Origin: Verrucomicrobiota bacterium
Lineage (GTDB): Bacteria; Verrucomicrobiota; Verrucomicrobiia; Opitutales; Seribacteraceae
Reading direction: 5' to 3'
Assembly: GCA_014382645.1 (NCBI GenBank)
Contig: JACNJI010000287.1
Location: forward strand, 1-12,044
Length of the DNA stretch: 12,044 bases
Within the stretch, counting starts at the first letter, position 1, and every line of letters starts with the position of its first letter. The notes beneath the pieces are model-generated. The model saw only the letters and a list, made by a program, of their open reading frames with translations. It was not told the origin of the DNA and did not search any database. Made by a program: the position numbers and the translations under genes. Below, piece by piece: positions 1,691-4,264 of the stretch.

Positions 1691-3298
1691 TTAGGCGGTG
1701 GCGCCTTCCGGTTCCGGGTTTTCGTCGAGAAGTGCATCGCCTTCTTCCATGACGCCGTCCACGATGGCGGCTCCGACTGAATCGCCGAAGCAGTTGACCG
1801 CGGTGCGGAATCTATCCAGCAGCCAGTCGACCATGAGTATCAGGCCTATTGCCTCGACGGGGAGTCCGGCGGCATTCAGGACGATCAGCATGGTGACCAG
1901 ACCGGCCTCGGGGATTCCGGCCGCCCCGATTGCCGCCAAGGTGGCCGTGATTGCGATGGTGATCTGGGTTGTCATGGTGAGTTCCTGGCCTGTGATCGGG
2001 AAATAAATTTGGGCTATGAATATGGCGGCGGCAGCCTCGTAAAGGGCGGTGCCGTCCATGTTGATGGTGGCCCCCAAGGGGAGAACGAACTTTGTGGATT
2101 TTTCCGAGATTCCGGCCTTGTCGATGGCGCACTCCATGGTGATGGGGAGGGTAGCCGAGGAGCTAGCCGTGGAGAACGCCGTGAGCACGGCTTGAGACAT
2201 ATTCTTAAAGAAGGTAATGGGGTTTTTCTTGGTGAACAGCCAGTAGATCAAGAACAAGGTGACAAAGGCATGGAAGCCCAGTCCCGTGAGAATCGTCAGG
2301 ATATAGTAACCCTGCTGACCGGCCATTTCCGCCAACTTGCCCTCTAGGTTGGCATGACCGAACTTCCCCGCCACCAGACAGAAGATGCCCAATGGGGCAA
2401 TGTTCATGAGGAGCATCACGAAAGACATCAAGGCATCGTTGGCTTGCCCGATCATTCTGGTGATGGCGAAGACCTTTTTGCCCATAGTGGTAAGCATGGC
2501 GGCAAAAATAATGCTGAAAACAATAAGGGGAAGCAGGTTCATCTCCGCCGCGGCCTTGAACAAGTTGTTTGTGACAAGCATGAGGAGAATGTTCTCGAGA
2601 ATGTCGGCCAGACCTTTTTCTTCACCGGCCTTCTTCTTTTGGGCCACTGCCTTGGCGTAAGCTTTGTCTGCGGTATCCTTATCGGTCTGGGCCATCTCGA
2701 CTTGCGTCTTTAGGGTCTCGTCTTGAGGTGATTTCTTTAGGGCGGTTTCGGCATCCGCGAGGGCCTTTGCCGCGATGGACAAATCCTCCTCGGCTTTTTG
2801 TTGCACCTCGATCGCCTCTTTTCGCTTTTTCTGCTCTTCCACGGCTTTGGACGCCTCTTCATTGGCTTCGTTTTTCTCTTCAACCTTGGCCTTGATCTTC
2901 TCCTTCAAGGCTACCAGTTCGGCCTCGGCCTCCTTTTTCTCCGGGCCGGCTGCCGCTTCGTACTTGGCCTTGGCTGCCTCCAGCTCCGGCTTCATGATGT
3001 TGACTATGATTAGCCCGACAATCACAGCCAACACGGTCGTGGACATGTAATAGCCAATCGCATAGGCGCCCGGTTTTCCCGGCTTCCGGACATCGCCGAG
3101 TCCCAGAATGCCGCTCATTACCGACATCACCACGAGGGGCACGACCATCATCATCAAAAGGCTGAGAAAGACTTCGCCGCCAACTTCGAATTTAACGGCA
3201 ATTTCGGGAGCGAAGTACCCCATCGCGATCGCTGCAACGATAGCGGCAATGATGTAATAAGTTAGGTTTCCGTGACCTTTGGGTTTCTTTTTACTCAT
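1691..3298 (-). CDS. Dicarboxylate/amino-acid:cation symporter (SDF/DAACS) with long helical insertion
   Basis: A 535-residue inner-membrane transporter of the glutamate/aspartate symporter family (GltPh/GltP/EAAT fold). The core signatures are intact: the HP1 serine motif STASSSATLPIT (376-387), NMDGT in TM7 (413-417), the HP2 loop AAGIPEAG (459-466), and the TM8 motif with D491, D495, R498, T499, N502 and D506. The arginine equivalent to GltPh R397 is kept, which favours an acidic amino acid or dicarboxylate substrate. About 126 residues (104-229) are inserted between TM3 and TM4. They are almost entirely K/E/A/Q/D with no membrane segment and are predicted helical. Typical bacterial members have about 400-440 residues, so the insertion explains the extra length. 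Cotransported ion (Na+ or H+) is undecided. The start ATG (3296-3298) lacks a Shine-Dalgarno sequence. The gene stands alone. Confidence 0.93.
   Translation of the reverse strand: MSKKKPKGHGNLTYYIIAAIVAAIAMGYFAPEIAVKFEVGGEVFLSLLMMMVVPLVVMSVMSGILGLGDVRKPGKPGAYAIGYYMSTTVLAVIVGLIIVNIMKPELEAAKAKYEAAAGPEKKEAEAELVALKEKIKAKVEEKNEANEEASKAVEEQKKRKEAIEVQQKAEEDLSIAAKALADAETALKKSPQDETLKTQVEMAQTDKDTADKAYAKAVAQKKKAGEEKGLADILENILLMLVTNNLFKAAAEMNLLPLIVFSIIFAAMLTTMGKKVFAITRMIGQANDALMSFVMLLMNIAPLGIFCLVAGKFGHANLEGKLAEMAGQQGYYILTILTGLGFHAFVTLFLIYWLFTKKNPITFFKNMSQAVLTAFSTASSSATLPITMECAIDKAGISEKSTKFVLPLGATINMDGTALYEAAAAIFIAQIYFPITGQELTMTTQITIAITATLAAIGAAGIPEAGLVTMLIVLNAAGLPVEAIGLILMVDWLLDRFRTAVNCFGDSVGAAIVDGVMEEGDALLDENPEPEGATA
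2612..2989 (-). other. Coiled-coil-like insertion in the TM3-TM4 loop of the symporter
   Basis: This segment encodes symporter residues 104-229, between the TM3 end (IIVNIMKP) and the TM4 start (LADILENILLML). It is alanine-, lysine- and glutamate-rich, and proline occurs only near residues 119 and 191, where turns would let helices fold back on each other. By GltPh topology this is the 3L4 loop, which faces outside, so the insertion should lie in the periplasm. The fold and its role are inferred; nothing in it matches a domain I can name. Confidence 0.7.
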
Positions 3299-3571: not shown

Positions 3572-4264
3572 TCAGTCGAGGCTGACAATACAGTCGGGAA
3601 GGGCTTCCTTGAGCATAATTTTTTGACTCTCGTTGATTGAATTGCCGCCGAGGGTCAAAACCTTCAATCCTTTCAATTTCGCAAGCGGCGAGGCATCGGT
3701 GATTTGGTTTTGGTGGAGGTACAATCTCGTCAACTTGGTCAAATCCGTTAGTGGCGCGATGGCCGTGATCTTGTTGTTGCCGAGGTACAGCTTCGTAAGG
3801 GACGTCAATCCTGCGAGCGGTGCGACGTCGGTGACTTGGTTGTCGTTGAGGGCAAGCCACTTCAGTTTGGGCAGTCCCGCCAGTGGAGCAAGGTCGGTGA
3901 TTTGATTGTCGAGGAGGCTGAGATTGGTCAACTTGGTCAGTGTGGCTAGTGGACCAAGAGTGGTGACCTTGTTGTTGTAGAGGGCCAAGTTGGTCAAGTT
4001 GGTTGCGTATTCGAGACCTGTGAGGTCGCTGATTCCGGCATTGTTCGCTTTCAGGGTTTCCAGTGACGCGATTTCCTTACGGGTGATGACGCCTTGTGGT
4101 TTGTTAAGGGCTGCCCGGACGACTGCCTCTAAGTTGGTGTCCTTGAAGGCCACAGGTCCATTCGGAACCGTCGGGTTGCCCGCGGGTTTCACCTCGCTGC
4201 TTCTTTGGGTAACGCATGATGCAAGAAGCAAGGCGGCGGCCGGAGCGACGAACAATTTCCTCAT
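3572..4264 (-). CDS. Leucine-rich-repeat lipoprotein (internalin-like repeats)
   Basis: A 230-residue exported protein. The N-terminus MRKLFVAPAAALLLASC is a lipoprotein signal with lipobox LASC, so C17 should be lipidated and the protein anchored to a membrane facing the periplasm or outside. A spacer follows, then a cap region (about 38-77, FKDTNLEAVVRAALNKPQG) seen in front of bacterial LRR arrays. Six consecutive 22-residue repeats begin at residues 78, 100, 122, 144, 166 and 188 with the consensus ITDLxPLAxLTKLTxLxLxxNx. The C-terminal cap (NESQKIMLKEALPDC, from 211) closes the array. LRR arrays of this type bind proteins; the ligand is unknown. The start ATG (4262-4264) has no Shine-Dalgarno sequence. 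It is divergent from the ABC-F gene and convergent with no neighbour. Confidence 0.88.
   Translation of the reverse strand: MRKLFVAPAAALLLASCVTQRSSEVKPAGNPTVPNGPVAFKDTNLEAVVRAALNKPQGVITRKEIASLETLKANNAGISDLTGLEYATNLTNLALYNNKVTTLGPLATLTKLTNLSLLDNQITDLAPLAGLPKLKWLALNDNQVTDVAPLAGLTSLTKLYLGNNKITAIAPLTDLTKLTRLYLHQNQITDASPLAKLKGLKVLTLGGNSINESQKIMLKEALPDCIVSLD
3638..4033 (-). repeat. Six in-frame 66-bp LRR units
   Basis: These bases encode the six contiguous 22-residue LRR units (residues 78-209) of the lipoprotein. The spacing is exactly 22 codons throughout. The units differ in DNA sequence but share words such as those encoding NxxIT and PLAxL. Regular 66-bp periodicity makes the array prone to unit gain or loss by recombination. 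Confidence 0.8.

Follow-up and report, generated by a model that had tools for sequence, protein, structure and literature searches.

The stretch of DNA analyzed here (the window, 12,044 nucleotides from a Verrucomicrobiota bacterium) encodes an SDF-family (SLC1/EAAT-like) symporter whose loop between TM3 and TM4 (loop 3-4) carries a 127-aa insert, probably a helical module. In related transporters, this loop holds inserts of several other kinds, some with putative EF-hand loops. Such modules may be handles on the elevator movement of the transporter, a reading that we favor tentatively.

An EAAT-like transporter with an insert in loop 3-4

The window protein matched the Pfam family SDF (PF00375) at 4.9e-112 in two stretches, with 375.2 bits for a curated cutoff of 27.9, and it has the elevator-transporter fold of the SDF/SLC1 proteins. 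The initial annotation had described the core motifs as intact, and we found the HP1 serine motif, the NMDGT motif of TM7, and the Asp and Arg of TM8 all in place (Table 1). The closest solved relatives by sequence are human EAAT1 to -3, followed by an ancestral aspartate transporter, ASCT2, GltPh, and GltTk; the window protein differs from the human proteins, GltPh, and GltTk by its helical insert. It scored far below the curated cutoffs of the NCBIfam models for DctA, GltP, and SstT (NF002461, 186.9 bits for a cutoff of 513; NF009587, 155.1 for 570; NF008440, 163.4 for 638; NF010151, 99.6 for 308). The position of the Arg in EAATs is known, and since TM8 reads as in the EAAT1 construct, the window protein, an EAAT-like member of the SDF/SLC1 elevator transporters, probably takes acidic amino acids as substrate. 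The window genome (88% complete) contains one further SDF gene, C370, whose 444-aa product is 44% identical to the window protein over query residues 228 to 521; this paralogue shares the Pfam family but has a loop 3-4 of 35 aa.

The insert is located between the end of TM3 (..IVNIMKP) and TM4a (DILENILL), and the alignment with EAAT1 resumes at residue 252 of the query. This agrees with the TM3-TM4 location proposed initially; the insert itself was confirmed, and its coordinates moved slightly, from 2612 to 2989 (about 126 aa) to those of Table 1. It is charged and almost free of proline, as had been noted: D, E, K, and R make up 44% of the residues, alongside 29 Ala, 2 Pro, 2 aromatic residues, and no Cys, a composition generic for helix. 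No Pfam domain was found in the insert at 1e-3, and an origin by tandem repetition was rejected, as no repeat was found.

Table 1. Features of the transporter gene, in window coordinates.
Feature	Coordinates	Strand	Basis
SDF (SLC1/EAAT-like) symporter gene, 535 aa	1691..3298	-	
TM1 to TM3, N-terminal core, model helices 10-101	2996..3271	-	AF2 helices 10-29, 31-71, 75-101
12-bp (GVNK) absence relative to relatives	2986..2987	-	Six-gene codon alignment
Loop 3-4 insert, residues 105-231, 127 aa	2606..2986	-	Alignment borders; ordered AF2 helices
Insert helix 105-115 (base)	2954..2986	-	AF2/DSSP
Insert helix 119-145 (base)	2864..2944	-	AF2/DSSP
Insert helix 147-189, rising hairpin arm	2732..2860	-	AF2/DSSP; block pLDDT 72-89 from residue 151
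Hairpin tip PQDETL, residues 191-196	2711..2728	-	Conserved Pro distance to insert end
Insert helix 194-224, descending arm	2627..2719	-	AF2/DSSP; block pLDDT 83-88 over 201-220
TM4 to TM8 core, residues 232-516	1751..2605	-	Pfam stretch 220-514 and AF2
HP1 motif SSSATLP, residue 379	2144..2164	-	
TM7 motif NMDGT, residue 413	2048..2062	-	
TM8 DWLLDRFRT, EAAT-like, residue 491	1802..1828	-	Aligned with DWLLDRFRT of EAAT1 construct

The insert recurs in relatives and is under purifying selection

We then looked for the insert in other proteins. In a first protein search (the best 120 of 7995 scored, which with the window protein make 121 sequences), a homologous insert of 127 to 135 aa was present in 41 of the 121 sequences, including the window's. 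These 41 inserts are 37 to 50% charged and contain 0 to 3 prolines, and all stay within this length range despite about 50% identity to the Verrucomicrobiales members. Relative to the Verrucomicrobiales members L036 to L038, the window shows 49 to 50% identity in the insert and 86 to 88% in the core. The insert, with both of its borders, is also kept in L034/L006 and L035/L005, close relatives (92 to 94% identical) that come from other assemblies. Neither of the results that the initial annotation had named as refuting, a disordered segment absent from all close homologues or a chimera at the borders, was seen.

Selection was evaluated by comparing the codons of six genes in 15 pairs; two of the genes were partial. 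dN/dS was usable in six pairs, in which dS was measurable on both insert and core; in the other nine, dS had reached saturation in the insert, the core, or both. The values were 0.347, 0.212, 0.227, 0.163, 0.219, and 0.201 for the insert and, in the same order of pairs, 0.060, 0.042, 0.039, 0.019, 0.040, and 0.034 for the core, and dN of the insert was about three to ten times that of the core. With dN/dS of 0.16 to 0.35 against 0.02 to 0.06, the insert is thus translated and constrained, less than the core: it is under purifying selection, which is weaker than that on the core.

In the codon alignment, the other five genes contain 12 bp encoding GVNK at the start of the insert that the window lacks. 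The first residue of the insert is Gly in 181 of the 182 proteins surveyed below, the window protein being the sole exception, and position 104 is Pro in all 182; the 12-bp absence in the window is a strain variant or an assembly error. This absence and the simple composition of the insert are what an artifact (a chimeric assembly, a frameshift, or low-complexity filler without order) would have in its favor, but an artifact is extremely improbable, and a chimera was rejected, given the same insert and borders in other assemblies, the purifying selection, and an ordered AF2 model. In a search with the insert alone, covering proteins of 0.55 to 1.75 times the length with shared exact words, nine of 2554 candidates reached E values of 1e-3 or lower, and every one of them is an SDF protein of the same group. 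Borrowing from a known protein family was rejected, as this search found none outside SDF proteins.

Predicted structure of the insert

The initial annotation had called for a structure prediction, and AlphaFold2 returned ordered helices, not disorder, for the insert (helices 105-115, 119-145, 147-189, and 194-224 by DSSP), with a block pLDDT of 65 to 89 over residues 101 to 220. Confidence is low at the junction to TM4a (block pLDDT of 49 to 58 over residues 221 to 250) and moderate for the core model (mean pLDDT of 75.2). According to the model, the insert is probably an ordered helical module, consisting of a base plus a hairpin whose arms are about 31 to 43 residues long, and we consider this structural part of our explanation, taken alone, very likely.

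A Pro marks the hairpin tip: among 46 sequences with the hairpin, 41 have it 40 or 41 residues ahead of the insert end, and 37 show the pattern P.[DNEK]..[LFM] there; the five sequences without the Pro keep a polar turn at this position. Four relatives with 101 residues in loop 3-4 (P0047, P0053, P0054, and P0062) all maintain the Pro distance of 40 to 41, and the 64- to 65-aa variants P0042 to P0045 retain only the base, i.e., the first part of the insert. Base and hairpin thus look like separate modules.

Helix 147-189 shows a hydrophobic periodicity of 3.4 to 3.5, reached by 117 of 5000 shuffles, which suggests a coiled coil in this helix. The coiled coil considered initially is thus only suggested, and the other segments did not beat their shuffles: 760 of 5000 were as high for helix 194-224, 3829 for 119-145, and 4951 for 105-115, with 578 for the whole insert. 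We use the term "helical hairpin" and do not treat a coiled coil as established, because a heptad-like periodicity is supported in helix 147-189 only.

Loop 3-4 is an insertion site in relatives

To the first set we added the best 120 of 7994 proteins from a second search with P0117 as the query, giving 186 proteins. Removal of the fragments P0046, P0048, P0051, and P0135 left 182; being the highest-scoring proteins from two queries, they are not a census. The search for further SDF proteins with an insertion between TM3 and TM4, advised by the initial annotation, was productive: 174 of the 182 have a loop 3-4 insert of 51 to 172 aa, and the remaining eight have 29 to 41 aa. Grouping by BLAST at 1e-5 yielded 112 helix-pair inserts (51 to 139 aa; a single-linkage cluster that includes members with unlike extensions), 49 of the window's kind (64 to 135 aa), and 13 beta-like ones (146 to 172 aa), with no match at 1e-5 between the three clusters among the 182 inserts. 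The best match to an insert of any other kind had an E value of 0.049 for the window's kind and of 0.033, over 14 residues, for the beta-like kind; a remote kinship among the helical kinds is possible. A protein from the window's order (L072, genome G683) has a different 121-residue insert in loop 3-4, strand-rich by eye, which gave no BLAST match at an E value of 10 among the other inserts. The borders are shared, with P104-G at the start and usually a [TSGN][ILMV][GW]-like end ahead of TM4a. By sequence comparison, at least four kinds of insert without detectable similarity are located between the same two borders, and the core is 63 to 75% identical to the window's in ten protein-search relatives compared.

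The beta-like domain of 146 to 172 residues was found in P0050, P0055, P0059, P0074, P0095, P0098, P0102 (host named Planctomycetota), P0104, P0108, P0119, and three more proteins. For P0074, AlphaFold2 gave a block pLDDT of 69 to 93 over residues 141 to 260, and the Foldseek and VIA-align match lists for its fold were filled by the transporter core. P0005 has a hit to DUF4407 (PF14362; 36.9 bits for a cutoff of 31.3) over residues 14 to 232, TM helices and charged insert alike; this annotation is probably spurious, in P0005 as in others, and the window protein had no DUF4407 match at 1e-3.

We also compared the other loops and further SDF loci. Among the 182 proteins, the cytoplasmic loop 2-3 has 14 residues and loop 4b-4c has 6 in every case, and loop 5-6 has 14 or 15; outward loops 1-2 and 3-4 range from 10 to 122 and from 29 to 172 residues, respectively. 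The N-terminal stretch varies from 6 to 58 residues and the C-terminal stretch from 2 to 28, and alignment A2 shows a difference of about five residues in the loop that follows TM7. Animal EAATs carry their extracellular elaboration in loop 4b-4c, in contrast to the relatives studied here, where that loop has exactly 6 residues. In the 29 best-matching SDF loci of a phylum sample (L040 to L068), loop 3-4 has 18 to 44 residues in 27 and 75 and 76 in two, and in paralogues from the window's family it has 35 residues in all 28 loci read.

Putative EF-hand loops in some inserts

A canonical 12-residue EF-hand loop (D.[DNS].[DNS]G.[ILVFM]...E) was found in 26 of the 182 inserts and in none of the 182 cores, with 0.06 expected per survey from shuffled inserts. 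The 26 inserts form 10 groups at 80% insert identity and belong to P0140, P0145, P0148 to P0153, P0155 to P0161, P0163, P0166 to P0169, P0175, P0063, P0073, P0086, P0117, and P0122; the host of one of them, P0149, is named as a Planctomycetales bacterium. The loops of the carriers are often paired, and 23 inserts have two looser EF-hand loops. Ten EF-hand-like proteins, comprising P0154 and nine of the 26 carriers, were scanned with Pfam: P0145 alone exceeded a cutoff (PF13202, 26.0 bits for 25.9), eight had subthreshold hits, and P0167 had none. The inserts of some relatives likely bind calcium.

Three EF-hand proteins examined (P0149, P0160, and P0168, 605 to 654 residues) have an extra coiled-coil-like insert in loop 1-2. 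Within that of P0168, the helix pair of the protein's own loop 3-4 recurs almost unchanged, as if modules moved between the two outer loops.

Possible role of the loop 3-4 modules

Loop 3-4 joins TM3, in the moving transport domain, to TM4, in the fixed scaffold, so a rigid body grown there would be a handle on the elevator. Standing on the periplasmic face, the hairpin would pack on itself, on the neighboring protomer, or on an envelope partner and thereby bias or slow the outward-inward movement; we infer that it tunes the elevator. Sister proteins would use other modules for the same input, with EF-hands conferring calcium sensitivity on some. Taken as a whole, an ordered module in loop 3-4 that serves as a handle on the elevator and tunes it by packing or docking is our best explanation, to which we give somewhat less than an even chance. 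In its favor, the insert sits between TM3 and TM4a of an intact core, at a site that holds 51 to 172 aa of several kinds in 174 of 182 proteins while loops 2-3 and 4b-4c are constant and loop 5-6 nearly so. The ordered helices, the nearly fixed length and tip distance, the purifying selection, and the excess of EF-hand loops also speak for it. Against it are the three- to tenfold higher dN of the insert, its generic composition, the weak heptad signal outside helix 147-189, the low model confidence at the junction to TM4a and the moderate one of the core, the relatives for which 29 to 41 aa suffice, and the lack of a conserved neighbor gene outside the window's genus.

We give a passive spacer only slightly lower odds than a handle, and it explains the relaxed selection equally well. 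The outward loop would simply be permissive, with helical spacers that are harmless and kept insofar as they fold, which is consistent with inserts differing in length and kind between lineages, with loops of 29 to 41 aa within the same group, with the lack of relatives beyond SDF proteins in the insert-only search, and with the variable length of loop 1-2 and both termini. Passive elaboration accounts less well for the nearly fixed length of the coil group at about 50% identity to its distant members, for the tip distance fixed in most sequences, and for EF-hand loops far above chance. Moreover, the 35-residue loop in 28 of 28 paralogue loci argues that such loops do not simply lengthen by drift.

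It is unlikely that the hairpin only docks the transporter, i.e., that it positions the transporter by attaching to peptidoglycan, to a substrate-binding protein, or to a protein of the outer envelope while the elevator is unaffected. Arms of 31 to 43 residues would reach about 46 to 64 Å at 1.5 Å per residue and present a charged surface, but the insert contains no Pfam domain at 1e-3, no neighbor gene shared outside the genus was found, and the dissimilar modules at one site in sister proteins make a single shared partner unlikely. Equally improbable is a clamp in which the hairpins of three protomers pack near the threefold axis and only stabilize the trimer. TM4, which directly follows the insert, belongs to the trimerization scaffold in GltPh, and the periodicity near 3.5 of helix 147-189 would suit such packing; the other insert segments lack this periodicity, and known SLC1 proteins form trimers without such an insert.

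The handle that we favor concerns a loop that matters for transport. In GltPh, loop 3-4 reportedly changes conformation with substrate and its cutting nearly abolishes transport (PMC8490817, with reference to Compton 2010 and to Mulligan and Mindell 2013), an effect put as one on kinetics and not on ion coupling (PMC12668577). The role of this loop in SLC1 proteins, which the former paper calls largely unknown, has been studied by cutting and by cysteine mutants; the engineered or cut loop of GltPh is the same as here, but it is naturally short and has no inserted domain, unlike that of the window protein. Among titles and abstract starts of open-license literature, none described a domain insertion in loop 3-4 of an SDF protein, which is weak evidence of absence. 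Beyond the initial annotation, our survey reveals that the same loop carries other kinds of domain in relatives, including some with EF-hand loops. Possible, though more doubtful than the handle itself, is the broader idea that evolution has used loop 3-4 as a regulation port in EAAT-like bacterial transporters, where dissimilar periplasmic modules (a helical hairpin, beta domains, or pairs of EF-hands) in the one loop coupling transport domain to scaffold would let mechanical or calcium signals outside the membrane set the elevator rate. Homologues whose loop 3-4 has about 30, 58, 65, 101, 130, or 160 residues, together with the calcium-ligand form, are natural experiments, and on cores 63 to 75% identical to the window's in the ten relatives compared, these variants offer a direct test of the role of loop 3-4 in the elevator cycle.

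Distribution and gene neighborhood

A core-only tree was built by a quick method from 98 rows, in which long outgroup branches meet; 30 rows were omitted (near-copies, fragments, and the short-loop proteins P0061 and P0066). The coil inserts, i.e., the form of the window protein, require one change on this tree (support of 90), and coil and base65 inserts fall on one side of a branch with a support of 100. Support was also 100 for the beta group and for the EF-hand group (2 rows), and the relative placement of the groups is weak, at 80 to 92. All insert labels together need 10 changes, compared with a mean of 57.4 after shuffling. The cores of the four 101-residue relatives branch earlier in the tree.

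The hosts of the coil form are named as Opitutia/Opitutae and Verrucomicrobiales metagenome assemblies. A contig scan for the gene gave six loci, five of them with the insert. In the window's family, the full coil form was found in 3 of 42 genomes, all from the window's genus and including the window's own, and a fourth genome holds a 35-residue fragment of it. In a class sample, 4 of 384 genomes match at 1e-75, two with the coil form (G000 and G573), one with a 56-aa loop (G593), and one with the 121-aa insert (G683). In a phylum sample, some SDF match at 1e-20 was found in 152 of 387 genomes, and with P0117 as the query only the window's own genome matches at 1e-70. The coil form is thus patchy, from transfer or loss.

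The search for a conserved gene neighbor found none outside the window's genus: in L036, L037, and L038, no gene of the window other than the transporter gene was found, L036 and L037 covering one flank only. In L034, most of the window genes tested recur beside the transporter gene, and the peroxiredoxin gene is found in L035 as well. A gene for a leucine-rich-repeat protein with a lipoprotein-like start (3572-4264, reverse strand) adjoins the transporter gene in the window, and only the first half of this protein was matched in L034, in two pieces.
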